NCBI RefSeq assembly: GCF_032854445.1
Contig: NC_088297.1
Location: forward strand, 3,161,991 to 3,225,990
DNA from: Liolophura sinensis
Taxonomy: Eukaryota > Mollusca > Polyplacophora > Chitonida > Chitonidae
Direction: 5' to 3'
Length of the DNA: 64,000 nucleotides
In this document: positions 17,601 to 61,224 of the stretch, piece after piece
Layout: each line of letters begins with the position of its first letter
Position numbering within the stretch: position 1 is the first letter of the stretch
Made by a program: the position numbers and the translations under genes
Notes under the pieces: generated by a model
The model's input: the letters and a program-made list of their open reading frames with translations, nothing else
The model's database searches: none
What the model was told of the DNA's origin: nothing

Positions 17601-18382
17601 CACTATCCCCTTCATGCTAAAAGTTACAACTTCCTCTTTTAAGGAGACACTTGTTTAAGTTCATATCCTTTGTGCTTTGTAAGTGTATTAAGTACCGTAA
17701 ATTACCAAATTCACGACCTCAGTACTTTACGTGTTGAGCTCAAGTTCAATAGGCAGGAAACTCTTTCATAATTTCAAATCCCAAACAAACAATTGTCACA
17801 CTGTACATTTTTTTTCTCATGTTACCTTTACATGTTAAATTACATGTATTATCAGGGCAAGCTTTCAAACCAGCCCCAATGGTTAACTGTTGTACCAAAT
17901 GTAGGATACCCGTGGGGAGCATTCTCTCTGACCTGAGCTTGGTACTTGTTGTAGAACAGCATTACATGACTATGTTTCCAGACAGTCCCTGGGTATCATT
18001 CTCTCAATATATTTATTAAAAAGCTTTTATTTTCTATTAATATATAAAAGAGTAAAATATTAAACATGTGTCCAGTACTGCTAAAACAAATTAACACAAC
18101 TATAATTTTATGCCTTATTATAAGTAGTATTAAATATAATGTGTGCATATAAACAATGGCATTGTTATTTATGTGACCAAGTGCAGTTTGCCATGTAATA
18201 CTGTGCAATTGTGCAAGTCAGTTAGTGTAGAGCACTATGACGCTGTATACCAACTGTAAGTACACACTAATCGTTACATATGTTTATTGTGAAGCCATAG
18301 TCCCATTCAAAGTGTCCCACTGCACTACAGTCATGCTTACAATGGCTTTAGTCTGTGCCATCCTTACTAACAATATTCACAG

Positions 18383-18570
18383 GATACAAGAAGTAGTGTA
18401 TTGTTCCATTTTATAGAAACTGTTTATCCCAAACAACTGGACCAAGTTGATGGAGCCATTGAGCTTGAGTGGAATGTTGAGAAGATGCTGAAGCAGTCTG
18501 CCGTGTTTTCTCATCAAAACACAGCTCTCCTCTCTATGGAGAATCATCTGCTGCCATCACATGCCATTTT
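18383..18570 (+). CDS. Candidate exon running up to the satellite
   Basis: ACAATATTCACAG is a fair acceptor. The phase-0 frame is open for about 96 codons and starts DTRSSVLFHFIETVYPK, later IELEWNVEKMLKQSAVFS and LLSMENHLLPSHAILH. These first 60 or so residues look like genuine globular protein. From about 18570 the sequence becomes satellite-like, with a stop at 18671-18673. No clear donor lies before the satellite. The satellite may have expanded at or into the end of the gene. The family is not recognised, and it does not join in phase directly to the 15913 candidate, so at least one exon is missing. Confidence 0.4.
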
Positions 18571-33619: not shown

Positions 33620-34511
33620 TATTTGGCTATGACTGAGAAGGATGGCAATTTAATAGATGATCCAGCTAAAATTTTCCATATTTTCAATACTTTCTTCTCA
33701 ACTGTCCCCATTCTTTAATAGATATTAATAATATAAACAAGGACAATTTTGTTCAAAGTCTTGAAAAACTCAGGGAACAAGTTGAGGGAAAAGTTCTTCA
33801 TGATACTTTTTACTCCATACCAAATATGTTGTATGTTTCTGTTTTACAATACCTTTTAAGGCTTGATAAAGATAAGGCTAGTGATCTGGACAATGTCAAT
33901 TCTAAATTTCTTTCATCATCTGCCCCTATTATTGCAAAATCTTTTACCATGCTAATAAACAAATGTGTTATGACCAGACATGGTTATCCCTCTTCACAAA
34001 AGGGGTTCAAAGTTGAAAACTATCATCCAATATCTGTCCTACTCAGTTTTTCAAAAATCACTGAACGACATTTACATAACTGTTTATACGAGTATCTCTC
34101 AAATTTTAAATTATTGAGCAAAAATAAATGTGGTTTTTGCCCCTCTTACGCTCTTGTGGAACTGTATTGCTGAAAATGGTTGAACACTGGTTTACGGCGA
34201 CAGATAACACTGAAGTTATTGGAACTGTACCTGTAGACTTCAAGCAGGCATTTGATACTGTTAATCACAATATATTACTTAAAAAACTTAAAGCATACAA
34301 ATTCACTCAACTGCTCTTACATTCTTCCAGTGATACCTATCTAACACACAACAAATGGTTGTTTGTGGAGGAGAAATGTATAATGCTAAGGATATTAAAG
34401 CCAGTGTCTTGCAAGGCTGGCTCCATATTGCAGCCTTTACTTTTTATACTATACATAAATGATCTACCATTATTTCTAAAGAACAATTTTATTATTTCTA
34501 ATTATTTCTAA
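33620..34511 (+). pseudogene. Broken non-LTR retrotransposon reverse transcriptase
   Basis: Relics of a LINE-type reverse transcriptase lie in at least three frames. An upstream linker (DDPAKIFHIFNTFFSTV, from about 33653) ends in two stops. Then come LRLDKDKASDLDNVNSKFLS and VENYHPISVLLSFSKITERH. A frame change near 34130-34170 follows, then VDFKQAFDTVNHNILLKKL (34233 onward, the first catalytic-Asp block) and SILQPLLFILYINDLPL (34421 onward). The stretch between HGYPSS and the NYHPIS-like block is shortened. The YxDD block is not seen, and no endonuclease or RNase H domain is visible. It cannot encode a working enzyme. The sequence style fits the Jockey/CR1-type clades; the exact clade is not assigned. 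Confidence 0.88.
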
Positions 34512-42875: not shown

Positions 42876-42995
42876 ATGCCACAGGAGTTTCAAGTTTTAC
42901 GCTGTTATTCTTGTGACACTTTTCAAGTACATCAGGTGAAAAAGGCCAAGAAATGGAACTGCAAAGTTTGTGGTGAGAAGCAGTCTTTGATAAAG
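42876..42995 (+). CDS. MRNIP: MRNIP coding exon 1
   Basis: Forty codons carrying both CxxC pairs. The donor is AAG followed by GTGAGTGG, phase 0. The exon probably begins at 42860 after TTATTTCAG, giving 16 nt of 5' UTR in this exon. That 16-nt stretch has no in-frame stop, so an upstream coding exon is not strictly excluded. Confidence 0.88.
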
Positions 42996-45900
42996 GTGAG
43001 TGGAGACTACGTGACCATATGTGACATTACTTATATCCTTGTATGTCTGTTAACATTTCCTTTTCTGGAGTTGGTTAGCACGCTAGCGCAGCGTAATGAC
43101 CCAGGAGTCTCTCACTAATGCGGTCGACGTGAGTTCAAGTCCAGCTCATGCTGGCTTCCTCTCCGGCTGTATTTGGGAAGGTGTGCCAGGAACCTGCGGA
43201 TGGTCGTGGGTTTCCCCTGGGCTCTGCCCGGTTTCCACCCACCATAACGCTGGCTGCCTTCGTATATAAGTGAAATATTCTTGAGTACGGCGTGAATCAC
43301 CAATCAGATAAATAAATAAATCTTTTCTGGAAGCAGTCTGTCTGTAGACATGATTTTGTGCACACAACTCACCAATTTCCATAAAAAAATTGCATATTTT
43401 TCATGCTGTCGGCATCAATATTTTTACAAAATATCAACAAAAAAGAAATAAACCTAGCATAACCACCATTTTTAGCTCACCTGTCTAAAATACAGGTGTA
43501 GCTCATGTTGTACCCTGAGCATCATTGTCCAATAAAAGGGAAAGCAGTGTTAAGCAAAATGTTAGGGGTGGTATCTTTAAAAGGGTCGCAGGGTTAGCTC
43601 AAGACTTGCTCGCATGTAGAGTACAATAGCACAAGGGGGATATTCCATCGATATGTGCATATTAAGTAATGTAAATTACTAAATTCCTGACGTAATGTAT
43701 AACAAAATGTTAGGGTAGGTATCTTAAAAGATATTGTATGTATTGACTTGAAGTTTTACATACATATAAAGCACAATGGCATAGAGGAATGCTCTTTCAC
43801 TGATGCGTTGTGAGTGTATTAAATACTTACATGGAGGTTTAGAGATCTGGCACTTCTCGCTTGTTAGTATCCAGTTATGTGCAGTGGATAATTTTTCACA
43901 TACGTAGAACATCTTTAGTACTGTTACTATGGGACAATTTACTATGGAGAATCGACTCAGTGTTCCAAAAGCAATTTGTAGTCATCCTCAGGGAATACAT
44001 CGAGCCACTCCAGTCAAGTTGCATGCACTGCTCAGTTTGTACAGCAGTGGGGATAGACACCTTAAGTCGTGAGTTCAAGTCTCACTTGAGCCAGTTAAGT
44101 ATTGTCGCTGATTATGTCTCCTTAACTTGAATGAATGAATGAATGTTTATGGCTTAACGCCACATCGGCAATATCTTTACCATATCGTGGCGATCTCCTT
44201 AACTTGTGTTGTAGTCACTAACGATGATTGAAATTTTTCCTCGTACAATTTGTTTGGTTTAATTAGGTGTTTGGTCAAGGCACCGGGGCTGAATGTCGGC
44301 GGCACACGCAGAAGCTGAACATGGTACAGGGAGAGGCTCGGGAGTGGGGGACTGTCCAGCAGGAGGAGGGTCACAAGGCTGGGGCTCAGACTTGTGAGGA
44401 ATCTGTCAAACAGGTTTTGATTTAATGTTATATTTGTGTAGTAAATTTGTCCACTGGTACCATGCCATACCACCACATGCAGCTTGCATTTTCCACCTCA
44501 AAATATCAACAACAAAAAATAAACCTAGCATAACCACCATTTTTTTGCTCACCTGTCTAAAATACAGGTGTAGCTTATGTTGCACTCTGAGCATCATTGT
44601 CCAATAAAAGGGAAAGCAGTGTTAAACAAAATGTTAGGGGTGGTATCTTTAAAAGGGTCGCAGGGTTAGCTCAAGACTTGCTCGCATGTAGAGCCCAATA
44701 GCACAAGGGGGATATTCCATCGATGTGTGCATATTGACGTAATGTATAACAAAATGTTAGGGTAGGTATCTTAAAAGATGTTGTATGTATTGACTTGAAG
44801 TTTTACATACATATAAAGCACAATGGCAGAGAGGAATGCTCTTGATGCCTTGTGAGCGTATTAAGTACCGGAAATGAACAAATTTACAATTTCAGTTTGT
44901 TATGCATTGAGCTGAAGTTTTGCATTCATGTGTCTCATACAGACAATCTCTTGGGTAGCGTTACTACCATTTCTAAGTTTTTAGCTGTGGTTGCTGGAAG
45001 TAAAGTCATAGCATTTGTTACCCTGGCAGGGTTATATCAAGAATCAGAAAGTTATGTCCGCATTCTGAAAAAACAATAACCAAGCACAGAGAGGCCCAGG
45101 CTCCAAAATCCACCCAGACCCTTGGCGGATGAAAGACTTCATCTTAATAATATTAAGCTTTGCAGTGCATTTAATTTTTGGATGAATTTGAGTGGTTTGT
45201 CTTAGTTTTGGTGGCACAACCCCAAAGACAGGAACAAAACCACAATCTGTTATGACCACCTGCCATCAGTAGTTTTCGCCAATCTGTACACATTATTTCT
45301 TAGGTGAGGAGATTTTCAGCCTTCTTGTTATTCTGAAGTTACCTCCCCTTGGCTGGTGAGGAATGGCGAACTCAGTGATTGATGATTACTAAAGATAAAG
45401 CCCTCTAGTTCAAGTTTAAGTAATTTCCTTTGATTGTTTGAAAAGAGGTGCTTAGTTTTTTTTTTTTTAAAAATCATTCCTTTGATTTTTTAAAGCATCT
45501 GTTATACGGACACAGAAAGGCCCTAGATCTAACATAGCTTTGCTATGGTAGCCTCTGATATTTTTAATTCTGTCCAACACAGACAAAACTTAACTAGGTG
45601 CAAAATGGACCTGGTATGGTAAGGCAGAGAATTGGCCCCAGAGAGGTACAATAAGACACTGCAGATTTTTCAGAATCTCAGCACAGTTCTGTAAATTTCA
45701 AAATCAAAAGTACAAAACTTGGTCAAATCCCCTGTAAAAGTTATGTGGCCATAGAATGGATGGTTACTTCGTAATCACTCGCCAAAAATACACTCTTGAG
45801 CAAAAACGCCATTTTTCGTACAAGCGAGAGACTTTGATTTACAGTATGAAGATCAATGTTAACCAGAAAAATATCTTTACTGAAAGTTTCACGTGTGTAT

Positions 45901-48900
45901 TTCTACGTGTTGTCAAAGTTTCGTTTTGGTTAATGTTTGTCTTCATATGAAAAAAATAAACTTTTTTTTTTTTTTAAACAGTTTTGATATGTTTGGCATG
46001 TTTAAAGTCCGTATTTCTGCCACACCCTGCTTTGTCCATGGGATAACTCCGGGAATTGGTTTGAAGCTAGATGATGAGAACTGATCCGCTTGTGTATTTT
46101 GTCTGCTATTTTGTTAGTTCGTCGCTGTTTCGATATTGTAGTAGACATTAACCGGATTGGTATCTCCAGACTATGTGCTGCGCCTGAATTTGACTAACTT
46201 TGCTTTGAGGCTTGATTACATTGTGGGGCCTCCTTGGTGATTGGGTTAAATCACTGACTCAGAGCAGGGCTTGGCCAAAACGGTAGTGTGTTCAAACCCA
46301 GCTCAAGTCCATGTAACTGGCGATGGTGGGCTATTTATTCATGCATCCCAGTTTCTTCCATCCAAAAATCTGAACATGGTGCCATGATATATAAAAATTC
46401 TTGAGCAAATTATTTTGTTAAACACGGCCGTAAGTGGGAAGGTCTGGCAGCAACCTGCGGATGGTCGTGGGTTTCCCCCGGGCTCTGCCCGGTTTCCTCC
46501 CACCGTAATGCTGGCCGCCGTCGTATAAGTGAAATGTTCTTGAGTACGGCGTAAAACACCAATCAAACAAACAAACAAACAATTTGTTAAACATCAGTCA
46601 GTTCAAGTAACTACATTGCACATTGGATTTGTGACCTTTAAGGCTCAAAATGTTTGATGTTTCGAGCTGTGCATAGTGATGACCTCAACAAAAATTGAGA
46701 TCATCCAATATTATTTAAAGATTTCAAATGTATATGTATTTGATTTGATTAATATCATTGTAAAACTCAAAGAAAGTAGATGAAATACAACAAGCAATCT
46801 TTTATCTGTCTGATAGTGTATGAATGTTTGCATGGTAGAAAGTAATCATTTTGATGAACTGGGCTTAATTTGAGGTCATCATTTTCATTTTAAGGTCTTA
46901 AAAAATGAGTGAATGACCAAATATTTTAAACACCTTTTAAGTTACGTTATATTATTTTAGTCCGACAACCCTTGGAGCCTGAAAAATATGTCAGATGGAT
47001 GGTTTGATTGACTCCCAGTTGGAACAGATGGTATAAATAAAACAAATTACACAGAAATTTGAAAAGATAGCCCATAAATTACACAGGAGCATCCAGTCTG
47101 CCATTTGAGAACCTTGTGTTAAAGGGATACAGCTTTGACTCTGATTGGCTGACAGTTGAGATAGGATTTCCTAGGTTAAATCTTTCAGCCTTGGTCACAT
47201 TTGAATAAATGTACCATACCTTAAATTAAGCTCAGGCAAGGCATAGCCTGGACTTGCCTGGATCTCTCACATCAGCCAATCAGAATCGATTCTGTATGCC
47301 TTTACAGTGTACTTTGAAACAACCTCATGAATAAACATGTATTTCCAGGATGACTATGACTTTATGGACCCAGAAATACAGGAGAGCTCCCGTAGTCGCT
47401 GGTCCCTGTATCTTGATGCTGAGGTAGAGGAGGACGAGCTGGACACAAAGACAGGAGACGATATGTACACCACAGACTGGAGGGAATACAGATCATCCAA
47501 GAAATCATTCAGGTTAGGTCTCAGTCGCAGAATTATTGTACTTTTCCCTAATGTTTTGCTCAAATAAGTGCATTTTTAATGGCAAATTAAAAAAAACATA
47601 TAATGTTACTTTTTGTATTTTCCCACTAAAATACCATCCTACCTGGAAACAAATCTCAGAATGCTTTTTAAACATGTATGTGGTCTGTAGAAATCCCAGG
47701 ATCAGGCAAAATGATTACCTTGTGAGTAATTTATGCTCTCCCTCAGAAAGATTCACCTTTTGTTCAGGTAAAAAGACATACGTGGACAGATCTGCATGCA
47801 AGTATTAACCCGCCGATGGTCATGGCTCTCAATATCATTGAAAACTGTTGACTGCTTCTCTTTGCATGATTCCGTCTCTATTTTCATACTTTATATAAAC
47901 AGTGCAACAAAAGTAAGTTCCCCCCAAAACGTTGTTGTGATAAAATAAAGAATTGTCGTTGAAAAACCTGGTTGACTCCTTTTATGAAATTTTCAAAATC
48001 GACCGATTTTCAGTTTGCGCATGCCCATCAGCGCACAACTGCACCTGCACGTTAATCCTCGATATACAACGTCCGCCGGATTACTGGGATAGTGTGTGCA
48101 GAATTTCATTGCGATCTGGTACATACCACAGAAGAGATCAAACAACATTTTTGGGGGAACTTACTTTTGTTGTACTGTATACTTTCTTAGTACTTTGGTG
48201 GTTTGTGTTTTACGTCGTGTTTGGGAATTGGCCTTACGATTATGAACCTCGTACTTTCTTATTGATTCACGGCTGGTATACGAATGTCTGTTTCGACGCA
48301 TGGATCTTCCATCGTAATGATGCACAATGTCGTATAAGTGAAATATTCCAACGTAGGCATAAATTGCCAATCAAATAAATAACAGATACATGTGATATAC
48401 AGAAGGTATGGGAAAAAAAAAACAAGCTCATATCGTGCATTTATTTGAAACAACAGGAATGAGAAGTATGAGTCAAAGATGCAAAGGAAAAGGCAAAGAA
48501 CAACTGATTACAGGGAGACACATCGTAGTTATGAGAAGACAGACTTCGAAGTGAGTTCTGCCATAAGGAAAGGTGATGCAGAAGACAATATTCCAAGGAG
48601 CTACCCACTTGGTGCTCAGCTTCATGAAAGATTTGGTGTCAGAAGTGGGAGGAATTTATTTCCAGGTGGTAGCGGAGTACACGCCCTTAGGGAAGCTTGT
48701 ACAAACTCAGCCCAGACTGAGGATATGTCTGGCTATCATCATGACAAGCCAGTTAAAAATGTCTTACAAAGGCCTGAAATTGGCTCAGATAGGAAGAAAA
48801 ACTTGCCCAAACCAGTGGCTTCCATGGCTAACAATCAGCAGTCGAAATGGGGAAAGTTTCTGGCGCCAGAAGCAGGAGACAGTGATAGTTCAGAAGAACA

Positions 48901-49309
48901 AAACGGTAACTATGTTGAAAAAGCAAAGACGGTAATCCTTAATATCAACAGCTACAAGCATACAGAAGTTGAAACATTGCAAGAGCACAGTCCAGATTTA
49001 CACTCAGCCAACCAGGAAAACATCCCTCTGTTTGAAGCAAGCAGTGAAAATGGAACTTTCGCGAATAATATTAATTTTTCAGAACAGAGGGACCACAGGA
49101 AGGGATGTTTCCCATCAGTTGGTCACATACGGTCACGTGAACCACCTGGAATTGATTCTGTTTCCGGTAAGAGAACGTGCAGCGATGTTGTGATTCCAGA
49201 TAGTTCTTGCAGCACACTTCCTGTAGCAAGAAATCCAACCATTAACTCGGCTTCTATATTTTCTTTGGGTGAGACTTCAGATGATGATGATTTCACTTTT
49301 AATATTTGA
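42876..49309 (+). CDS. MRNIP: MRN complex-interacting protein (four coding exons, 427 aa)
   Basis: Coding exons are 42876-42995, 44267-44413, 47349-47512 and 48457-49309 (1284 nt including stop), with intron phases 0, 0 and 2 and GT-AG borders throughout. Residues 7-13 are VLRCYSC. Cys10/Cys13 and Cys29/Cys32 form the family's zinc-ribbon-like pair, followed by VCGEKQS and, from exon 2, [14 protein letters not shown]. Residues 272-279, QSKWGKFL, match the conserved SKW-F motif. The tail ends [12 protein letters not shown], like the acidic C-terminus of vertebrate MRNIP. In vertebrates MRNIP is a nuclear protein that binds MRE11-RAD50-NBS1 and supports ATM signalling and fork protection. The ATG is chosen because it gives the short N-terminus typical of the family. 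At 427 aa it is longer than the roughly 340-aa human protein. The last exon is duplicated downstream. Confidence 0.88.
43070..43321 (+). mobile_element. SINE in MRNIP intron 1, with target-site duplication
   Basis: Head truncated, beginning at GTTGGTTAGCACGCTAGC; it ends AATAAATAAAT. The 10-bp duplication CTTTTCTGGA lies at 43060-43069 and 43322-43331. Confidence 0.93.
43430..43800 (+). repeat. Dispersed repeat in MRNIP intron 1, partner of 44503-44870
   Basis: It shares AATAAACCTAGCATAACCAC, TGTCCAATAAAAGGGAAAGC, GGTTAGCTCAAGACTTGCTC and GGGGATATTCCATCGAT with intron 2 at over 90 percent identity by eye. A small palindrome AGCTCACCTGT...ACAGGTGTAGCT sits near its start (43474-43503). Confidence 0.85.
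43801..44266. other. Rest of MRNIP intron 1
   Basis: A tRNA-like B box (GTGAGTTCAAGTCTCAC) lies at about 44070. At 44128-44193 a (GAAT)n run leads into GTTTATGGCTTAACGCCACA, another dispersed-repeat start. A pyrimidine-poor acceptor TTTAATTAG ends the intron. Confidence 0.5.
44267..44413 (+). CDS. MRNIP: MRNIP coding exon 2
   Basis: 147 bp, phase 0 at both ends, encoding 49 residues from [13 protein letters not shown] to EESVKQ. Skipping it would keep the frame. The donor is CAG followed by GTTTTG, weaker than the others. Confidence 0.85.
44503..44995 (+). repeat. Dispersed repeat in MRNIP intron 2
   Basis: Direct copy of 43430-43800, continuing further (TTGCATTCATGTGTCTCATA, GGGTAGCGTTACTACC) as in the copy at 12268-12600. 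With the intron 1 copy it brackets exon 2. Confidence 0.85.
44996..46424. other. MRNIP intron 2, central part
   Basis: AT-rich with poly-T runs at 45459 and 45963. At 46205-46330 a tRNA-like head (GGGGCCTCCTTGGTGATTGG, then GTGTGTTCAAACCCAGC) is the start of an older SINE. No exon was found, although the family would not need one here. Confidence 0.45.
46425..46582 (+). mobile_element. SINE in MRNIP intron 2, with target-site duplication
   Basis: 5'-truncated (starts CGGCCGTAAGTGGGAAGGTC) with an (AAAC)n tail instead of (AATA)n. The 11-bp duplication TTTGTTAAACA lies at 46414-46424 and 46583-46593. Confidence 0.93.
46594..47348. other. MRNIP intron 2, 3' part
   Basis: An inverted pair of about 15 bp (CTCTGATTGGCTGA near 47140 and ATCAGCCAATCAGAA near 47272) lies just upstream of exon 3. 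It ends in the acceptor TGTATTTCCAG. Confidence 0.5.
47349..47512 (+). CDS. MRNIP: MRNIP coding exon 3
   Basis: 164 bp, entered in phase 0 and leaving AG (phase 2) before GTTAGG. It encodes an acidic stretch [20 protein letters not shown] with an RW-x-LYLD segment resembling the family's SRWLKYL-type motif. Confidence 0.85.
47513..48456. other. MRNIP intron 3, crossing the duplication breakpoint
   Basis: The tandem duplication begins at 47936 inside this intron. A degraded SINE tail (TAAGTGAAATATTCCAACGT, then GCCAATCAAATAAATAA) lies at 48331-48383. The acceptor is TTGAAACAACAG. Confidence 0.6.
48457..49309 (+). CDS. MRNIP: MRNIP terminal coding exon 4
   Basis: 853 bp. It completes the split codon (AG+G, Arg144) and encodes a long, polar, probably disordered region with [11 protein letters not shown] near residues 272-282 and an acidic SDDDDF end. 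The exon carries about two thirds of the protein. A nearly identical exon lies at 55464-56316. Confidence 0.88.
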
Positions 49310-49384
49310 AAACAGTCTGTTATCGGCCCTCAGATTGTTGGTTTTCCGAGCGTCCCTCTAAAAGCTTGTATTTGTTGTCAGGGG

Positions 49385-49612
49385 TTCCTCCGTGGTTGAG
49401 TGTAGCACAAGAACTCAAGAGCCTCTCACCAATGCGGTAGCTGTGAGTTAAAGCTCATCCTGGTTTCCTAGCCGGTCGCATGCCGGTCATAACAGCAACC
49501 TGCAGATGGTCATGGGCTGCTTCTGTCCGGTTTCCTCCCACCATAATGCTGGCCTCGGTAGTTGGAAATATTGTTGAATACAGCATACAACGCTAATTAA
49601 ATAAATAATTAC
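49385..49612 (+). mobile_element. SINE variant in the MRNIP 3' flank
   Basis: TCCGTGGTTGAGTG head, CACCAATGCGGTAGCTGTGA, GGTTTCCTCCCACCATAATG and a degraded tail AATTAAATAAATAA. The AATAAA here is the first good poly(A) hexamer after the MRNIP stop. Confidence 0.8.
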
Positions 49613-49654
49613 TTTAATTAAAAAAAATTAAAAATAAATTACTTTCACGGCCCC

Positions 49655-49990
49655 CGCTCCGTCAGACGGTTAAAGAGTTGGCTCGGTGTGGCCGTCAGGG
49701 CCTCCATCAATGTGATTGCGTGTTGAAATCCACCTCTCGCGGCTTTGAATCAGGAGGTTTGCCTTTATCCGCCCGAAGGATGTCGTTTACTCCGGACACT
49801 GGTTACCACTGATTAACCGGACTGCCGTCATACAAGTGAAAATTCTTGAATCTAGGCGTCACGGACATTAACCTGGGGATCGTCGTGGGTTTCCCCCTGG
49901 CTCTGCCAGGTTTCCTCCCACCATAATGTTGGCCGACGTCGTGTAAGTGAAATGTTCTTGTGTACGGCGTAATAAAATAAATAAATACAT
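49655..49990 (+). mobile_element. Composite tRNA-SINE remnant
   Basis: A diverged head (GCCCCCGCTCCGTCAGACGG) and a degraded 3' domain (ACAAGTGAAAATTCTTGAAT) are followed at 49875 by a second SINE 3' half ending GTAATAAAATAAATAAA. Confidence 0.75.
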
Positions 49991-50034
49991 AGATTTATAA
50001 ATCAAAACAGATATTAGTTAATTTAGTACACAAA

Positions 50035-50300
50035 CAATTTCAAAGCTGATCACCGCGATGTGGCTGCAATACTTCTGAAATGGTGTGCAGTGTGAAACCA
50101 TGATCATTACTTCAAAGCTGATCACCGCGATGTGGCTGCAATACTTCTGAAATGGTGTGCAGTGTGAAACCATGATCATTACTTCAAAGCTGATCACCGC
50201 GATGTGGCTGCAGTACTTCTGAAATGGTGTGCAGTGTGAAACCATGATCATTACTTCAAAGCTGATCACCGCGATATGGTGCAACACTTCTGAAGTGGTG
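50035..50300. repeat. Minisatellite, 72-bp unit, about 3.6 copies (duplication unit 1)
   Basis: The unit begins TTCAAAGCTGATCACCGCGA and ends GAAACCATGATCATTAC. Because 72 is divisible by three, an open minus-strand frame persists across units; I regard it as incidental. Unit 2 of the duplication has exactly one repeat fewer. Confidence 0.93.
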
Positions 50301-50989
50301 TTAAACCATGTTGCTGTAAGTTACCCTCGATCTCACGGTCTTGGTTCAGAATTCTTTCCACTTTCTTTACACATGCTAAAGTTTTCCAGTATAACCGGTA
50401 AGTAACACTATTATAATTTTTTTAAAAAGTGGCTTCAACATTATGACGATTAGTGTCGCTCTAATGCAGGAATATAGTTCTACCTTTCTTTTGCGACGTA
50501 GTTATTCAATCGGTCACAGTAATCAAATATGTGTTTGAGCATGACGTATTAAACGACAGTCAAATCAAACGTTTAGGACGGTCTTTGTGTTATTTATTTC
50601 AAGCATGGAACAGTATTGCGATGGGCAAGGTTCATTTACGATCTCTTTATTCAAGTCGTTTGCATGTCAGTGGAATTCTGAAAAACCGATATTTCTTCAT
50701 GATACTGTACGTGAATAGATACCGTTACAGTCTACAGTTTCACGAGCGCAACTCGCGGCATTCGCGCATATACATGGTACACTTCCAGCCATCATAGCTA
50801 TATTGTCCTACTTTCCGATAGGCTGGACCGATGATCCACCAAACACTCCGATATCAGCACACTGGTACAAATATGGCGACCCCGTTCCTGTGTTCTTCGT
50901 GTGCTTTACCTGATGGGAAAAAGAAAAGCTGTTTTCTTGAACTCAGACCATTCGTTAGTGGGATGCATTACAACAGACTACCAATGCCG

Positions 50990-51160
50990 TCGCAGTGAGT
51001 TCATGCTGGCTTCCTCTCCGGTCGAAAGTGGAAAGGTCTGCTAACAACCTGCGGATCGTCTTGGGGTCCCCCGGGGCTCTGCCAGGTGTCCACCCACCAT
51101 AATGCTGGCCGCCGTCGTATAAGTGAAATATTCTTGAGTACGGCCGGACTAATGAAATAA
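50990..51160 (+). mobile_element. SINE 3' two-thirds (duplication unit 1)
   Basis: GAGTTCATGCTGGCTTCCTC to AAATATTCTTGAGTACGGCC, ending GAAATAAATAAACAAATAAA. Confidence 0.88.
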
Positions 51161-51174
51161 ATAAACAAATAAAT

Positions 51175-51247
51175 ATGAAAGACTACACCATTGAGAGCAA
51201 AACTAGAGTAGCGACAACAGTGGTTTGTAGTTAACGAACCATATATG
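51175..51247 (+). repeat. Diverged relative of the 84-bp satellite unit
   Basis: TGAAAGACTACACCATTGAG followed by AGTAGCGACAACAGTGG matches the 63.5-kb array unit (AAAGACGTACAGCATAGAGAG, shortened in comparison, and AGCAGCGACGACAGTGTG). Confidence 0.6.
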
Positions 51248-51299
51248 GGTGAAATATTCTTCAGTACGGCGTAAAACACCCATCAAATAAATACATAAA
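51248..51299 (+). mobile_element. SINE tail (left recombination partner)
   Basis: GTGAAATATTCTTCAGTACG then GCGTAAAACACCCATCAAAT. It is the left partner in the 617-bp difference between the duplication units. Confidence 0.88.
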
Positions 51300-51764
51300 T
51301 AAGCGATCACATGGAAGTAATGCAAGTAATTGGGCCTCTGGAACTTTTTAGTTTTTTGACCTTAGTTAAAACATAACACCTGTATATTAAAATTTGATCG
51401 TCCGGCCCAAGTAAACAGGATGTCACAAATTTGATCGTCCGGCCTATGTAAACAATTAGGATGTCACAAACTTGACTGACAAACGGACAGGCAGACAGTG
51501 CCTGTGCTGCTTGTGGCAGCTGACTGCGGCACAGGGAAATGCCTCCGGCCAGGAGTAGTTCTCGCATCGAAACCTTCATGTACATGTGTGCTCCAGCGTT
51601 CTTATAATTAATGTTTTCGTATGCCGATTACCGAGTGTACAGTTGTGCATTACACTCAATTCGTAAGGAGAAAGAAGATAAGCTTACAGGTCATCCATTG
51701 AGGTTTCGTCAGTATGCCACGTAACAGCGAAGTCACAACCGGAACACAAAGTGTCATGAGCCCG
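51300..51764. other. Sequence present only in duplication unit 1
   Basis: It contains a short direct repeat AATTTGATCGTCCGGCC (51391 and 51429) and no recognised gene. It is absent from the second unit. Confidence 0.6.
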
Positions 51765-51912
51765 GCCGTACGTGGGAAGGTCTGTCAGCAACCTCCGGAT
51801 GGTCGTGGGTTTCCCCCAGGCTGTGTCCGGCATCCACCCACATAATGCTGGCCGCCGTCGTGCAAGTGAAATATTCTTGAGTACGGCGTAAAACACCAAT
51901 CAAATAAATGAA
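51765..51912 (+). mobile_element. SINE 3' two-thirds (right recombination partner)
   Basis: CCGTACGTGGGAAGGTCTGT to ACGGCGTAAAACACCAATCA and AATAAATGAATAAA. Confidence 0.9.
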
Positions 51913-52637
51913 TAAAACGAGTCAGTCATGACCGTCGCTTCAGGCGAAAAGCGAGCTTATCCTACTGATAATAATACTTTCGCCAGAACATTCCCGTATT
52001 CGGGTTGGCAAACTGTTGTCATTTGTGATGAAAGTAAATGGCACAAAGACTTACCTGAAGTATATAATTCTGAGAGGCATCTCTGAAATGATGAAACACA
52101 TGCACATACATGTTACGTAGAATCAAACGATTTTTGGTAAATTTCACCTTTTTTTTTTTTCGTTTTCCAGTATTTTCGGCCTATTGATTAACATGCAAAC
52201 ACTTTTTCTTATTTATTATTGTTACGATTTACGCTTCTTGCTTACGCCATGCACAAATCAGACCTAACTGGGGCACAATCATCTACAGAAACAGTACACA
52301 GTGACCGTGATTCTGATTGGATAACTCACAGCGTGGCCGGTATTGTCACGTCCACGGAGTAGATGAATATGGCGGGGTCCCCGGGATCCGTGAATCTCTT
52401 CAGTTCAGTCAGCGAGCCATCCTCCTTACCAATACTAATGGTGTAATACCCCTGAATACACGGATGAATACGCAAGTGAATCTCAAGTTGCATGTGCAAG
52501 ATCGACGACAGTGTAGATGACTGGGCGAAACGTAGTGCTTTTTGCATATGTACATGTAACTTTCAGTCATTATTACAAAGCCCGTTGACTGTTTCTTCTT
52601 CCATGTAACTAACAGTAAACCTTCATGGAAACATATT
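51913..52637. other. Spacer in duplication unit 1
   Basis: No gene recognised. The open frame at 52317-52520 recurs in unit 2 with one substitution but has no family match, and both strands are equally open. Confidence 0.35.
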
Positions 52638-52875
52638 TATTTTTTTATTTATTTATGTATTTGATTGGCGCATTTTTACGCCGCACTCAAGGATATTTCA
52701 CTTAAATACGACGGCGGCCAGCATTACGGTGAGAGCAAACCAGGCAACCCACGACCATCTGGTGATTGCTGAGAGACCACGCCCCCGTACGACAGGAGAG
52801 GAAGCTAGCATGAGATGGACTTGAACTCACAGCGCCCAATTTGGTGTCATTGCGCTACGCTAGTAACAGAGGCCC
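52638..52875 (-). mobile_element. SINE, minus strand, near full length (unit 1)
   Basis: TTATTTATTTATGTATTTGA, GGAAGCTAGCATGAGATGGA, GTGTCATTGCGCTACGCTAG and AGAGGCCCCT, the complement of the head. Confidence 0.88.
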
Positions 52876-53009
52876 CTCATGCGGAAGATAGTAAGTTGAG
52901 GTAATATGATTAGTTTAAATACAACAATGTGGCCATCTATTTTCCAAAAAAATAATAATAGTTGTATTAGTGGAAGAATAGATGCCCCATTATCCTATTA
53001 TCAACAACA

Positions 53010-53168
53010 TTGGCTTCCTGCCCGGCCGTACGTGGGAAGGTCTGCCAGCAGGCTGCGGATGGTCTTGGGTTTCCCACGGGCTCTGCACGGTTTCCGCTCA
53101 CCATAATGCTGGCCGCCGTTTTATAAGTGAAATATTCTTGAGTACGGCGTAAAACATCAATCAAATAA
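53010..53168 (+). mobile_element. SINE 3' two-thirds (unit 1)
   Basis: TTGGCTTCCTGCCCGGCCGT to GCGTAAAACATCAATCAAAT. The unit 2 copy has lost about 11 bp (CTGGCCGCCGT region). Confidence 0.9.
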
Positions 53169-53538
53169 TTAAATGTAATGAAAAAAGAAATCGAAGCACG
53201 CGTGAAACCGGTTGTCTTTTTCTATAATCTTTCTTTAAAATTTCCTCAGAAGTATATTTTATTCATCAGCTGGTTGATTTTTGTTGAAAATCCCTAGCTA
53301 TAACAGTAGGCCGTATTTAATAATGAACAGTTTACGACGGTGAATCGCCGGAAGTTTGACCTCCTAATGCATCTAAGATGATTTTGCAAACTGACCAACA
53401 AGGACTTGAGCTTCTATGTTGGACGTAATTAAGGCTACCTGAATCCATTACGTCATTAAAATTATTTTCAAAACTTTGAAGCTTTTCACGCGAAGATGCC
53501 CATTTCCTTGGCGTCGTCATATTTTCTGCAAAGTAATC

Positions 53539-53540
<2 letters not shown>

Positions 53541-53620
<80 letters not shown>
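53541..53620. repeat. (TA)40 microsatellite
   Basis: Eighty uninterrupted bases of TA. In unit 2 it is shorter and broken by a CGG. Confidence 0.98.
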
Positions 53621-53623
<3 letters not shown>

Positions 53624-53749
53624 GTCCATCTGACACATACCAACAACGCAAAAGTAGTCCACTACCCATGCTTTAATACTATCTAAATTTGCCTAACGTT
53701 TCTAAAGTTTGTCCAGGCAACAACCCATGCATGGTCATAAGTTTCTTCC

Positions 53750-53865
53750 AATATGAAATATTTATTTATTTAAATATATATTGATTAGTGTTTTACACGG
53801 TACTTGAAGTCACAGCGATTGTATTGTTAAGAGGCTCCTGTGTCATTAAGGCGCGCTGACAATCA
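53750..53865 (-). mobile_element. Degraded SINE, minus strand (unit 1)
   Basis: TTTATTTATTTAAATATATA, TAGTGTTTTACACGGTACTT, then with the centre deleted AGAGGCTCCTGTGTCATTAA. Confidence 0.75.
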
Positions 53866-54299
53866 AATAATGATTTAAATTTTATAAAGTTCGTCCAAGG
53901 GTATCTCGCAAGAAACGCAAGAGTTGACTTTCGAGTGACAACGAATATTTGCGACACAATGATATAATAATTATGTTATATAAGTTATATAATTATGACA
54001 ATAAGAAAAGTTTTACCGGATTATCTTTGTTGAAATGCGCCATGTTTTTCTCAAAGACGACCCGAGTAATGCCACCAGCCCTGGAAAATGCAGAAGTGTG
54101 AATATATTTGCCCAAACTACATGTATATGGTTGAGTCCATGTTATTGCATGCTTTATACTGGCCTAAATAATTATCAAAGACACTCAACTATTGAGTAAG
54201 ATATCAGTAGTATATCAGTGAATGTTTGAATAATTAAATAATTTATTTATTTCATTGCTTGTTAAACGGCGTGTTTAAGAAATTTTAACTATGATGACT

Positions 54300-54420
54300 A
54301 AGGTCAGATTTAGGGTATAGTGGGAACAGTTCGAACTCGTGACCTCATTGGTCATTGGCGTTTGTATAGACTTAGCGAGCCAGCGCTTTAACCAACATCT
54401 CAGCAACGTTGGTGACATTG
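54300..54420 (-). repeat. tRNA-like repeat (unit 1)
   Basis: On the minus strand GAGATGTTGGTTAAAGCGCT resembles an A box and GAGGTCACGAGTTCGAACTG a good B box. No cloverleaf forms; it is tRNA-derived. Repeated at 60562-60682. Confidence 0.6.
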
Positions 54421-55463
54421 TCATAAGAAAATCTACTCTGTACCAGAGTTGGAGACGAAAGTATTTTTTTCGTGCACGATACCTCAATTGCCAATGTGGT
54501 AACAACTGCAATGAGAGCAACGTTTTAAACGAATGAGCCAGCGATAGCCGCTAGGCAAAAGTGCATTAGGTATATATTTTGGCCACTTTGACAACTTAGC
54601 CAATGAGTATTTCTGGACGAGTATTTGATGCTGAATGTGCAGATGAACACTGTGTTACCTGATTCTCACCTGTACAATATAATGATAGATATCAATATAC
54701 TTTGTAAAATGTATGTTGCAGTTTCGGTTTCAGTGACTAAATATAAACTTATATTTCGGCAATGATTTTTTTTGTCTTCATCTGTGAACGTCTTTCGTGT
54801 ATCATATTTGAATTTGCAACGTCTTTCGCAAAGGGTAGACACTCGGTTGATTTATTTCAATGGCGTTTAACATTACGTTACAGTCTGGTGGCGGCTACAC
54901 ATGATATTGATAATTACTGGTCATCGAGTGAAAATGATGGAATTCTGTGATAAAATAAAGAATTGTCGTTGAAAAACCTGGTTGACTCCTTTTATGAAAT
55001 TTTCAAAATCGACCAATTTTCAGTTTGCGCATGCCCATCAGCGCACAACTGCACCTGCTCATTAATCCTTGATATACCACGTCCACCGGATTAGTGGGAT
55101 AGTGTGTGCAGAATTTCATTGCGATCTGGTACATACCACAGAAGAGATCAAACAACATTTTGGGGGGAACTTACTTTTGTTGTACTGTATACTTAGTACT
55201 TTGGTGGTTTGTGTTATACGTCGTGTTTGGGAATTGGCCTTAATTCGATTATTAACCTCGTACATTCTTATTGATTCACGGCTGGTATACGAATGTCTGT
55301 TTCGACGCATGGATCTTCCATCGTAATGATGCACAATGTTCTATAAGTGAAATATTCCAACGTAGGCATAAATTGCCAATCACATAAATAACAGATACAT
55401 GTAATATACAGACGGTATGGAAAAAAAAACAAGCTCATATCGTGCATTTATTTGAAACAACAG

Positions 55464-56316
55464 GAATGAGAAGTGTGAGTCAAAAATGCAAAGGAAAAGG
55501 CAAAGAACAACTGATTACAAGGAGACACATCGTAGTTATGAGAAGACAGACTTCGAAGGGAGTTCTACCATAAGGAAAGGTGATGCAGAAGACAATATTC
55601 CAAGGAGCTACCCACTTCGTGCTCAGCTTCATGAAAGATTTGGTGTCAGAAGTGGGAGGAATTTATTTCCAGGTGGTAGCGGAGTACACACCCTTAGGGA
55701 AGCTTGTACAAACTCAGCCCAGACTGAGGATATGTCTGGCTATCATCATGACAAGCCAGTTAAAAATGTCTTACAAAGGCCTGAAATTGGCTCAGATAGG
55801 AAGAAAAACTTGCCCAAACCAGTGGCTTCCATGGCTAACAATCAGCAGTCGAAATGGGGAAAGTTTCTGGCGCCAGAAGCAGGAGACAGTGATAGTTCAG
55901 AAGAACAAAACGGTAACTATGTTGAAAAAGCAAAGACGGTAATCCTTAATATCAACAGCTACAAGCATACAGAAGTTGAAACATTGCAAGAGCACAGTCC
56001 AGATTTACACTCAGACAACCAGGAAAACATCCCTCTGTTTGAAGCAAGCAGTGAAAATGGAACTTTCGCGAATAATATTAATTTTTCAGAACAGAGGGAC
56101 CACAGGAAGGGATGTTTCCCATCAGTTGGTCACATACGGTCACGTGAACCACCTGGAATTGATTCTGTTTCCGGTAAGAGAACGTGCAGCGATGTTGTGA
56201 TTCCAGATAGTTCTTGCAGCACACTTCCTGTAGCAAGAAATCCAACCGGTAACTCGGCTTCTATATTTTCTTTGGGTGAGACTTCAGATGATGATGATTT
56301 CACTTTTAATATTTGA
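55464..56316 (+). pseudogene. Duplicated MRNIP terminal exon, intact frame, no upstream exons
   Basis: 853 bp matching exon 4 without indels. The acceptor TTGAAACAACAG is preserved and the frame, if spliced from exon 3, is open to the stop. Relative to exon 4 the encoded changes are Y148C, R163K, V176G, A179T, G196R, A220T, A328D and I406G, with one silent change (AAG to AAA at codon 151). The QSKWGKFL motif and acidic end are unchanged. Exons 1-3 are not duplicated, so it cannot stand as a gene. It is either a pseudo-exon or an alternative terminal exon reached by splicing from exon 3. I call it pseudogene only for lack of transcript evidence. Confidence 0.75.
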
Positions 56317-56391
56317 AAACAGTCTGTTATCGGCCCTCAGATTGTTGGTTTTCCGAGCGTCCCTCTAAAAGCTTGTATTTGTTGTCAGGGG

Positions 56392-56619
56392 TTCCTCCGT
56401 GGTTGAGTGTAGCACAAGAACTCAAGAGCCTCTCACCAATGCGGTAGCTGTGAGTTAAAGCTCATCCTGGTTTCCTAGCCGGTCGCATGCCGGTCATAAC
56501 AGCAACCTGCAGATGGTCATGGGCTGCTTCTGTCCGGTTTCCTCCCACCATAATGCTGGCCTCGGTAGTTGGAAATATTGTTGAATACAGCATACAACGC
56601 TAATTAAATAAATAATTAC
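56392..56619 (+). mobile_element. SINE variant (unit 2 copy of 49385-49612)
   Basis: I see no difference from the unit 1 copy. Confidence 0.8.
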
Positions 56620-56661
56620 TTTAATTAAAAAAAATTAAAAATAAATTACTTTCACGGCCCC

Positions 56662-56997
56662 CGCTCCGTCAGACGGTTAAAGAGTTGGCTCGGTGTGGCC
56701 GTCAGGGCCTCCATCAATGTGATTGCGTGTTGAAATCCACCTCTCGCGGCTTTGAATCAGGAGGTTTGCCTTTATCCGCCCGAAGGATGTCGTTTACTCC
56801 GGACACTGGTTACCACTGATTAACCGGACTGCCGTCATACAAGTGAAAATTCTTGAATCTAGGCGTCACGGACATTAACCTGGGGATCGTCGTGGGTTTC
56901 CCCCTGGCTCTGCCAGGTTTCCTCCCACCATAATGTTGGCCGACGTCGTGTAAGTGAAATGTTCTTGTGTACGGCGTAATAAAATAAATAAATACAT
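56662..56997 (+). mobile_element. Composite tRNA-SINE remnant (unit 2)
   Basis: Copy of 49655-49990, apparently identical. Confidence 0.75.
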
Positions 56998-57041
56998 AGA
57001 TTTATAAATCAAAACAGATATTAGTTAATTTAGTACACAAA

Positions 57042-57240
57042 CAATTTCAAAGCTGATCACCGCGATGTGGCTGCAATACTTCTGAAATGGTGTGCAGTGT
57101 GAAACCATGATCATTACTTCAAAGCTGATCACCGCGATGTGGCTGCAATACTTCTGAAATGATGTGCAGTGTGAAACCATGATCATTACTTCAAAGCTGA
57201 TCACCGCGATATGGTGCAACACTTCTGAAGTGGTGTTAAA
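57042..57240. repeat. Minisatellite, 72-bp unit, about 2.6 copies (unit 2)
   Basis: Same unit as 50035-50300 with one repeat fewer. It carries ATGATGTGCAG in place of ATGGTGTGCAG in one copy. Confidence 0.93.
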
Positions 57241-57929
57241 CCCTGCTGTCGTAAGTTACCCTCGATCTCACGGTCTTGGTTGAGAATTCTTTCCACTTTC
57301 TTTACACATGCTAAAGTTTTCCAGTATAACCGGTAAGTAACACTATTATAAATTTTAAAAAAAAGGGGATTCAACATTATGACGATTAGTGTCGCTCTAA
57401 TGCAAGAATATGGTTCTACCTTTCTTTTGCGACGTAGTTATTCAATCGGTCACAGTAATCAAATATGTGTTTGAGAATGACGTATTAAACGACAGTCAAA
57501 TCAAACGTTTAGGACGGTCTTTGTGTTATTTATTTCAAGCATGGAACAGTATTGCGATGGGCAAGGTTCATTTACGATCTCTTTATTCAAGTCGTTTGCA
57601 TGTCAGCGGAATTCTGAAAAACCGATATTTCTTCATGATACTATACGTGAATAGATTTCGTTACAGCCTACATTTTCACGAGCGCAACTCGCGGCATTCG
57701 CGCATATACATGGTACACTTCCAGCCATCATAGCTGTGTTGTCCTACTTTCCGATAGGCTGGACCGATGATCCACCAAACACTCCGATATCAGCACACTG
57801 GTACAAATATGGCGACCCCGTTCCTGTGTTCTTCGTGTGCTTTACCTGATGGGAAAAAGAAAAGCTGTTTTCTTGAACTCAGACCATTCGTTAGTGGGAT
57901 GCATTACAAAAGACTACCAATGCCGTCGC

Positions 57930-58093
57930 AGTGAGTTCATGCTGGCTTCCTCTCCGGTCGAAAGTGGAAAGGTCTTCTAACAACCTGCGGATCGTCGCGG
58001 GGTCCCAGGTGTCCTCCCACCATAATGCTGGCCGCCGTCGTATAAGTGAAATATTCTTGAGTACGGCCGGACTAATGAAATAAATAAATAAAT
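57930..58093 (+). mobile_element. SINE 3' two-thirds (unit 2)
   Basis: Copy of 50990-51160 with a short deletion after GATCGTCGCGGGGTCCC. Confidence 0.88.
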
Positions 58094-58099
58094 AAGTAA

Positions 58100-58170
58100 A
58101 TATAAAAGACTACACCATTGAGAGTAAAACTAGAGTAGCGACAACAGTGGTATGTAGTTAACGAACCATA
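58100..58170 (+). repeat. 84-bp-satellite relative (unit 2)
   Basis: Copy of 51175-51247. Confidence 0.6.
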
Positions 58171-58174
58171 CATG

Positions 58175-58225
58175 GGTGAAATATTTTTGGGTACGGCGTA
58201 AAACACCAATCAAATAAATGAATAA
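58175..58225 (+). mobile_element. Chimeric SINE tail formed by deletion
   Basis: The left side (ACATGGGTGAAATATTTTTG) matches the 51248 tail and the right side (CACCAATCAAATAAATGAAT) matches the 51765 SINE. This places the deletion inside the shared GTACGGCGTAAAACACC. Confidence 0.9.
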
Positions 58226-58959
58226 AACGAGTCAGTCATGACCGTCGCTTCAGGCGAAAAGCGAGCTTATCGCATTGATAATAATACTTTCGCCAGAACA
58301 TTCCCGTATTCGGGTTGGCAAACTGTTGTCATCTGTGATGAAAGTAAATGGCACAAAGACTTACCTGAAGTATATAATTCTGAGAGGCATCTCTGAAATG
58401 ATGAAACACATGCACATACATGTTAAGTAGAATCAAACGATTTTTGGTAAATTTCACCTTTTTTTTTTTTTTCGTTTTCCAGTATTTTCGGCCTATTGAT
58501 TAACATGCAAACACTTTTCTTATTTATTATTTTTACGATTTACGCTTCTTGCGTACGCCATGCACAAATCAGCCCTAACTGGGGCACAATCATCTACAGA
58601 AACAGTACACAGTGACCGTGATTCTGATTGGATAACTCACAGCGTGGCCGGTATTGTCACGTCCACGGAGTAGATGAATATGGCGGGGTCCCCGGGATCC
58701 GTGAATCTCTTCAGTTCAGTCAGCGAGCCATCCTCCTTACCAATACTAATGGTGTAATACCCCTGAATACACGGATGAATACGCAAGTGAATCTCCAGTT
58801 GCATGTGCAAGATCGACGACAGTGTAGATGACTGGGCGAAACGTACTGCTTATTGCATATGTACATGTAACTGTATGTCTTTCAGTCATTATTACAAAGC
58901 CCGTTGACTGTTTCTTCTTCCATGTAACTAACAGTAAACTTTCATGGAAACATATTTAT

Positions 58960-59190
58960 TTTTTTATTTATGTATTTGATTGGCGCATTTTTACGCCGCA
59001 CTCAAGGATATTTCACTTAAATACGACAGCGGCCAGCATTACGGTGAGAGCAAACCAGGCAACCCACGACCATCTGGTGATTGCTGAGAGACCACGCCCC
59101 GTGCGACAGGAGAGGAAGCTAGCATGAGATGGACTTGAACTTACAGCGCCCAATTTGGTGTCATTGCGCTACGCTAGCAACAGAGGCCCC
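58960..59190 (-). mobile_element. SINE, minus strand (unit 2)
   Basis: Copy of 52638-52875. Confidence 0.88.
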
Positions 59191-59324
59191 TCATGCGGAA
59201 GATAGTAAGTTGAGGTAATATGATTAGTTTAAATACATCAATGTGGCCATCTATTTTCCAAAAAAATAATAATAGTTGTATTAGTGGAAGAATAGATGCC
59301 CCATTATCCTATTATCAACAACAT

Positions 59325-59475
59325 ACTGGCTTACTGTCCGGCCGTACGTGGGAAGGTCTGCCAGCAGGCTGCGGATGGTCTTGGGTTTCCCACGGGCTCT
59401 GCACGGTTTCCGCTCACCATAATGTTGTATAAGTGAAATATTCTTGAGTACGGCGTAAAACACCAATCAAATAAT
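59325..59475 (+). mobile_element. SINE 3' part with small deletion (unit 2)
   Basis: Copy of 53010-53168. CACCATAATG joins directly to TTGTATAAGTG. Confidence 0.88.
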
Positions 59476-59846
59476 TAAATGTAATGAAAAAAGAAATCGA
59501 AGCACGCGTGAAACCGGTTGTCTTTTTCTATAATCTTTCTTTAAAATTTCCTCAGAAGTATATTTTATTCATCAGCTGGTTGATTTTTGTTGAAAATCCC
59601 TAGCTATAACAGTAGGCCGTATTTAATAATGAACAGTTTACGACGGTGAATCGCCGGAAGTTTGACCTCCTAATGCATCTAAGATGATTTTGCAAACTGA
59701 CCAACAAGGACTTGAGCTTCTATGTTGGACGTAATTAAGGCTACCTGAATCCATTACGTCATTAAAATTATTTTCAAAACTTTGAAGCTTTTCACGCGAA
59801 GATGCCCATTTCCTTGGCGTCGTCATATTTTCTGCAAAGTAATCGG

Positions 59847-59882
59847 TATATATATCGGTATATATATATATATATATATATA
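59847..59882. repeat. Interrupted TA microsatellite (unit 2)
   Basis: (TA)4T, CGG, then (TA)12. Allelic in position to the (TA)40 of unit 1. Confidence 0.95.
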
Positions 59883-60561
59883 CATGTCCATCTGACACAT
59901 ACCAACAACGCAAAAGTAGTCCACTACCCATGCTTTAATACTATCTAAATTTGCCTAACGTTTCTAAAGTTTGTCCAGGCAACAACCCATGCATGGTCAT
60001 AAGTTTCTTCCAATATGAAATATTTATTTATTTAAATATATATTGATTAGTGTTTTACACGGTACTTGAAGTCACAGCGATTGTATTGTTAAGAGGCTCC
60101 TGTGTCATTAAGGCGCGCTGACAATCAAATAATGATTTAAATTTTATAAAGTTCGTCCAAGGGTATCTCGCAAGAAACGCAAGAGTTGACTTTCGAGTGA
60201 CAACGAATATTTGCGACACAATGATATAATAATTATGTTATATAAGTTATATAATTATGACAATAAGAAAAGTTTTACCGGATTATCTTTGTTGAAATGC
60301 GCCATGTTTTTCTCAAAGACGACCCGAGTAATGCCACCAGCCCTGGAAAATGCAGAAGTGTGAATATATTTGCCCAAACTACATGTATATGGTTGAGTCC
60401 ATGTTATTGCATGCTTTATACTGGCCTAAATAATTATCAAAGACACTCAACTATTGAGTAAGATATCAGTAGTATATCAGTGAATGTTTGAATAATTAAA
60501 TAATTTATTTATTTCATTGCTTGTTAAACGGCGTGTTTAAGAAATTTTAACTATGATGACT

Positions 60562-60682
60562 AAGGTCAGATTTAGGGTATAGTGGGAACAGTTCGAACTC
60601 GTGACCTCATTGGTCATTGGCGTTTGTATAGACTTAGCGAGCCAGCGCTTTAACCAACATCTCAGCAACGTTGGTGACATTG
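60562..60682 (-). repeat. tRNA-like repeat (unit 2)
   Basis: Copy of 54300-54420, apparently identical. Confidence 0.6.
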
Positions 60683-61224
60683 TCATAAGAAAATCTACTC
60701 TGTACCAGAGTTGGAGACGAAAGTATTTTTTTCGTGCACGATACCTCAATTGCCAATGTGGTAACAACTGCAATGAGAGCAACGTTTTAAACGAATGAGC
60801 CAGCGATAGCCGCTAGGCAAAAGTGCATTAGGTATATATTTTGGCCACTTTGACAACTTAGCCAATGAGTATTTCTGGACGAGTATTTGATGCTGAATGT
60901 GCAGATGAACACTGTGTTACCTGATTCTCACCTGTACAATATAATGATAGATATCAATATACTTTGTAAAATGTATGTTGCAGTTTCGGTTTCAGTGACT
61001 AAATATAAACTTATATTTCGGCAATGATTTTTTTTGTCTTCATCTGTGAACGTCTTTCGTGTATCATATTTGAATTTGCAACGTCTTTCGCAAAGGGTAG
61101 ACACTCGGTTGATTTATTTCAATGGCGTTTAACATTACGTTACAGAATTCTTGAAAAAGCTTCGAAGAATTCTCGAAGAAAACCTTCGAGCCTGAAAACA
61201 TCTTGACTCAAAGCAGCAGCTGAA

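Follow-up and report, generated by a model that had tools for sequence, protein, structure and literature searches.

A Probable Young Tandem Duplication and a Spare Last Exon at the MRNIP Locus of a Chiton

The MRNIP Gene and Its Repeated Last Exon

The DNA considered here is a window of 64,000 nucleotides from the chiton Liolophura sinensis (contig C3, 3161991-3225990), in which the gene of the repair factor MRNIP is followed by a second copy of its own last coding exon. All coordinates are window positions (1-64,000), and the main features are collected in Table 1. The genome searched for related sequences comprises 609,464,459 bases in 632 contigs.

The gene is recognised by the N-terminal MRNIP domain (PF15749), which matched exon 1 above the cut-off (contig C3, 3204884-3204997) and exon 2 collinearly with it; the TAG found within the exon 2 match precedes the exon and is part of its acceptor. 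The profile gave one match for each of these two exons, and two matches elsewhere are so weak (16.4 and 16 bits, cut-off 27) that they are attributed to chance. Exon 3, with the stretch 47340-47825 around it, was matched once among the best 40 of 1564 candidates scored, the remaining matches being to the repeat 47826-47900. Exons 1-3 are therefore single, as an earlier note made from the letters of this DNA had stated. The last exon, which has itself no MRNIP-domain match in Pfam, is present at two places in the genome (both of two candidates scored).

Comparison of the window with itself by BLAST resulted in one long direct repeat, lying head to tail in four collinear blocks with sharp ends (47936-54883 and 54946-61145), which is far beyond chance. 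In the global alignment the two copies differ by 84 mismatches in 6180 aligned columns (1.36%) and by 16 gap events, the largest of which measure 617 bp, 72 bp, and 44 bp, the latter in a TA run. The head-to-tail repeat beginning in MRNIP intron 3, described in the earlier note, is thus borne out together with its start at 47936; the end that was given as 61150 has to be moved to 61145, where copy 2 stops, 6262 bp from 54884. Since the 617 bp of copy 1 sit between two similar tails resembling short interspersed elements (SINEs), a deletion in copy 2 is suggested, so that copy 2 would be the deletion form at this site.

Both last exons are 853 bp long and of the same phase, the agreement of length and phase that characterises a tandem exon duplication. 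They differ by 10 nucleotides in 9 codons, of which 8 are amino-acid-changing and 1 is silent, and copy 2 has neither a stop nor an indel relative to copy 1. With either last exon joined in frame, the predicted protein has 427 amino acids, with about residues 145-427 encoded by the last exon, and the two predicted products differ at residues 148, 163, 176, 179, 196, 220, 328, and 406. The count of eight differences given previously holds; their even spread over the long disordered region does not, because six of the eight are concentrated in exon codons 1-76 and the other two lie beyond. The 40 intron bases preceding the acceptor are identical between the copies, which means that the acceptor is kept, and copy 2 repeats all five AATAAA and three ATTAAA motifs of the copy 1 3' flank, with the first AATAAA of copy 1 at 49600 and that of copy 2 at 56607. 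With acceptor, full frame, and 3' flank motifs preserved, the second last exon is as intact as it was described.

Table 1: Positions of the MRNIP exons, the two repeat copies, the transposon pieces, and the notable tracts.
Feature	Positions	Strand	Evidence
MRNIP coding exon 1, ATG to donor GTGAGT	42876..42995	+	PF15749, 60 bits, above cut-off; borders read
MRNIP coding exon 2	44267..44413	+	PF15749, 24.6 bits, under 27-bit cut-off; collinear with exon 1
MRNIP coding exon 3	47349..47512	+	one genome match; frame runs on into exon 4
Copy-1 last coding exon of MRNIP, in the original position	48457..49309	+	exon comparison, splice borders
Copy-2 last coding exon of MRNIP; acceptor unchanged, frame open	55464..56316	+	exon comparison
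Copy 1 of the block (part alignable to copy 2)	47936..54883	+	self-BLAST, global alignment
Copy 2 of the block (part alignable to copy 1)	54946..61145	+	self-BLAST, global alignment; right end and flank read
Copy-1 Tc1/mariner-like transposon in intron 3, both ends, internally deleted	47898..48181	+	inverted arms, family copies
Copy-2 transposon remnant, 5'-truncated by the junction	54879..55191	+	family copies
Duplication junction, TACAG common to 61141-61145	54879..54883	+	junction and right-flank reading
Internal transposon piece kept in copy 2, absent from copy 1	54884..54945	+	family matches, 88-95%
Mismatch-free tract (0/912 aligned, one 72-bp array-unit gap); exon end and 3' flank	49243..50226	+	alignment
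617 bp unique to copy 1, flanked by two similar SINE-like tails	51249..51865	+	alignment
Tract identical between copies (0/1287 mismatches)	53597..54883	+	alignment

Several smaller features of the repeat were also recorded. An array of 72-bp units counts 3.7 of them in copy 1 (50039-50301) and 2.7 in copy 2 (57046-57236), and copy 2 has a TA run 44 bp shorter than the one at 53541-53620; array and run are handy markers to distinguish the copies in reads. Downstream of MRNIP an open frame of 110 codons is preserved in both copies (50465-50797 and 57401-57733), and its copy 1 version has no Pfam match.

The Transposon in Intron 3 and the Seam

The copy 1 block begins in a Tc1/mariner-like transposon, classified by its TA target site and terminal inverted repeats, the arms of which (47896-47936 and 48141-48181) are 41 nt long and 90% complementary. 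The element sits at a TA-rich site inside another repeat, the family of which is represented in the window by 47826-47897 plus 48178-48306. This host repeat is without the insert in all seven displayed loci (nine in all), where six loci read TTTATATA at the site and L008 reads TTTATGTA. Ten copies of the transposon family were displayed, and nine of them were aligned for site states, L020 being too short. Family matches reach the equivalent of ~55191 in six of the ten loci, and the four shorter ones end at query positions 378, 357, 356, and 158, compared with ~390 for the full length. Judging from L017, L019, L021, L023, and L047, the family seems to carry long inverted ends of ~200-250 bp, with some short copies forming palindromes. 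The open frame of one family copy (L048) gave the HTH_23 domain at 22.1 bits, under its cut-off, and that of another (L046) had no Pfam match at E 0.01; we presume a likeness of the family frame to Tc1 transposase.

At the seam between the two blocks the end of copy 1 abuts the interior of such a transposon. With scoring of the best 40 among 286 candidates, 38 further matches to 54879-54945 were listed at 88-95%, and random seam filler is ruled out for 54884-54945, which is transposon family sequence. Upstream of the TAC motif all ten displayed family copies share related sequence, as judged by eye, which in the window is replaced by the end of copy 1. Because the family copies run on at this point and the window does not, the seam lies inside the transposon. 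The junction motif reads TACAG in four displayed family copies, TACAA in five, and TACTG in one. In the window TACAG at 54879-54883 is at the same time the last stretch shared with copy 2 before its right flank (61141-61145), that is, a microhomology, and its presence both at the seam and at the right end of copy 2 indicates that 4-5 bp of microhomology were used. The junction is consequently not at 54945/54946, where the earlier note had placed it, but at 54879-54883, and 54946 is the point where homology to the shortened transposon of copy 1 resumes.

Among the eight sites that differ in the shared part of the transposon, five are derived in copy 2 and three in copy 1, as judged from the nine aligned family copies; moreover, both pieces share states which are absent from these nine. 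The right flank without transposon and the states common to both pieces indicate that both descend from one insertion. Homologous exchange between two separate insertions was rejected on the same grounds: beyond TACAG the right flank of copy 2 is free of transposon sequence, and the states are shared.

Mosaic Divergence and Age

The divergence between the copies is distributed as a mosaic. In the gene part it amounts to 3.11% in the intron, 2.99% in the first 234 bp of the exon, 0.48% in the exon remainder, and 0% in the 3' flank; in the distal part it is 3.17% and 1.8% in the middle and 0% in both 53158-53593 and the right end, with three additional mismatches within the TA run. The longest and second longest mismatch-free runs (1287 and 912) were equalled in none of 10000 random placements. 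The mosaic might be caused either by gene conversion or by allelic haplotypes brought into cis, and both fit equally.

According to the available text of the assembly report (PMC11068029), the heterozygosity of the sequenced individual is 1.24%, a value close to the copy divergence, which implies that the duplication is young or still segregating; 1.36% is also what is expected for a young true duplication. A variant of the duplication reading follows from this closeness: an unequal exchange between divergent homologues could have turned two former alleles into neighbours in cis. The variant would account for divergence about equal to heterozygosity, for blocks of 0% and ~3% that resemble allelic mosaics, and for the transposon state that differs between the copies; however, divergence after duplication together with gene conversion fits equally, and the variant is regarded as possible but rather unlikely.

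Use of the Second Last Exon

As exons 1-4 all remain with copy 1, together with the nearer acceptor and the poly(A) motifs, the gene should run as before, and general knowledge of splicing leads one to expect the use of the closer exon, which carries end signals of its own. The changes in the last exon, nine nonsynonymous to one synonymous, show no departure from the site ratio (p=0.70), a test with little power at 10 changes. Conservation of the exon does not exceed that of its non-coding flanks (2.99% and 0.48%, compared with 3.11% in the intron and 0% in the 3' flank), and in neutral trials the frame stays open after 10 random substitutions in 70% of cases. With this neutral chance of 0.70 the intact frame is ruled out as a sign of selection. 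Provided that the duplication is real, the spare exon of copy 2 is likely to be spliced in rarely or not at all, and it most likely persists as a neutral bystander.

Functional alternative last exons, with exon 3 spliced to either copy and two MRNIP proteins with eight C-terminal differences as the result, would agree with the intact acceptor, frame, and poly(A) motifs of copy 2. They would also gain meaning from the human protein, in which, according to the available part of the report (PMC9098523), disordered region 1 (residues 123-176 of 343) is required for condensates and MRE11 binding. With about residues 145-427 of the chiton protein encoded by the last exon, an exchange of that exon would affect the half that corresponds, by position only, to this human region. 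Nevertheless, copy 2 lies 7 kb further, behind an intact copy 1 exon with its poly(A) motifs; exon-specific constraint or divergence was not found; and the last 40 intron bases are identical, so the acceptor gives copy 2 no advantage. The sequence gives no sign that the second exon is used, and such use is considered improbable. A bolder combination, in which a duplication seeded by the transposon brought two divergent alleles of the C-terminal half of MRNIP into cis and the gene would now make two isoforms of the repair factor from alternative last exons, is very improbable; if true, it would mean that heterozygosity for a condensate-forming tail has been fixed on one chromosome.

The earlier note had offered either a route to mutually exclusive last exons or a pseudo-exon caught early. 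The first finds its argument in the anatomy only, given the conservation of the exon relative to its flanks and the 70% chance of an open frame, and it is not upheld; the second fits best, with no exon-specific conservation and with intactness expected by chance.

Proposed History and Its Weighing

With a probability of about 0.7 the locus represents a young, partial tandem duplication of the microhomology type, 6-7 kb in size, with a spare last exon that is unused or rarely used. The simplest history would consist of one insertion, one microhomology duplication, and then an internal deletion of the copy 1 transposon. A Tc1/mariner-like transposon had inserted into MRNIP intron 3, as is shown by its two ends beside copy 1 and by the uninserted host repeat elsewhere. 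A break or replication slip would then have joined ACGTTACAG, ~6.7 kb downstream of the transposon, to TACAG or TACAA inside it, probably using the 4-5 bp of microhomology visible at the junction, and the join would have duplicated the 3' part of the transposon, the last exon, the 3' flank, and intergenic DNA. Judging from the alignment, the copy 1 transposon probably lost its middle later, and copy 2 would have lost the 617 bp between the two SINE-like tails. Gene conversion, or an origin from two allelic haplotypes, may finally have left the two identical tracts beside ~2-3% difference elsewhere.

Several points weigh against this account. The fifth base of the microhomology is uncertain because only four of the ten displayed family copies read TACAG. 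The exon has 0 indels compared with 16 outside it (P ~0.08), a slight lean to constraint that is weak alone, and the constraint test with its 10 changes has little power. In principle, the identical tracts could stem from the consensus step of the assembly. Most of the remaining points concern the assembly itself (GCA_032854445.1, published as Liolophura japonica), which was made by hifiasm from HiFi reads and processed with purge_dups and YaHS, and for which the available text reports a mean read length of 8,347 bp and 14X coverage (PMC11068029). Such reads, at a mean of 8.3 kb, are barely longer than the repeat unit, and a divergence at the level of heterozygosity is what alleles placed falsely in tandem would show and what marks false duplications.

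False duplications are a recognised assembly problem in the part of the literature available here (PMC9516828), and the low coverage, the short reads, and the pair of values 1.36% and 1.24% would suit an artefact in which two haplotypes of a single-copy region were placed head to tail. The anatomy argues for a real duplication over a misjoin. The window contains no N, so that the seam and its surroundings are gap-free, and the sole run of N in the 204 kb scanned (the window plus 140 kb of flanks) is a 200-base gap at the window-equivalent position 120374, ~59 kb past the block. The seam holds transposon sequence (54884-54945) which is absent from copy 1, and overlap assemblers are not known to join sequences through 5 bp. 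Under a filter of >700 bp, >93% identity, and >700 bp apart, the same 204 kb yielded a single further direct pair, ~0.8 kb at 94% with the members ~6 kb apart (L034:8331-9259 and L035:4335-5175). The matches listed contain no leftover haplotig: the last exon occupies two places in the genome, and the flanking stretches 47340-47825 and 61146 to ~61534 occupy one place each among the best 40 candidates scored. The tandem duplication is therefore very probably real, and the artefact appears unlikely. The uncollapsed haplotype, named as the chief alternative in the earlier note, has lost ground owing to the gap-free stretch and to a 4-5 bp seam inside a transposon with sequence absent from copy 1, yet it keeps the argument of divergence near heterozygosity.

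Other Features of the Window

Away from the repeat, a minisatellite at 18818-20986 comprises 46 copies of a 47-bp unit with a strong bias of C over G on the strand (GC skew -0.48 in 18001-20000). In the Pfam comparison of ten open frames of the window one weak reverse-transcriptase fragment was found (34128-34508; 27.3 bits, under the Pfam cut-off of 29.6), and three other matches at E 0.036 to 0.13 are taken as chance. Rfam at the gathering threshold and a tRNA scan gave no matches.

Comparison with Known Systems

In the library searched, no paper joined MRNIP with Liolophura or MRNIP with "exon duplication". The locus may be valued as a young and legible case of the origin of a spare last exon, with an intronic transposon, a microhomology seam, and a gene left complete, and as a clean locus for asking whether spare exons ever get recruited. 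If the exon is unused, this would be an ordinary partial duplication and a caution for gene models.

Microhomology-mediated tandem duplications and copy-number variants form a known class, to which the locus is similar in the 4-5 bp at a blunt seam, in the copying of a part of the gene, and in the completeness of the original gene, and from which it differs in having one breakpoint inside a transposon. With haplotypic false duplication, as characterised in the available part of PMC9516828, it shares divergence at the level of heterozygosity; in contrast, the MRNIP block is without a gap and has a microhomology seam and extra transposon sequence.

Two Drosophila genes, known here from the available part of one paper (PMC9013439), are close in exon structure. 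In pip, cited there, tandem duplicated and mutually exclusive last exons are described as eight clusters that are alternatively spliced; the likeness is that single upstream exons are followed by a last exon in head-to-tail repetition, whereas chiton MRNIP has two near-identical copies known from sequence alone. In hydra the duplicated initial exons lie next to the transposon DINE-1, and, as in the chiton, an end exon is duplicated with a transposon at the repeat border; unlike the recurrent duplication of first exons in hydra, MRNIP presents a last exon and a single event. Since duplicated terminal exons with exclusive splicing are already known from the same source, even the boldest reading of the MRNIP locus would be a new case of a known kind.

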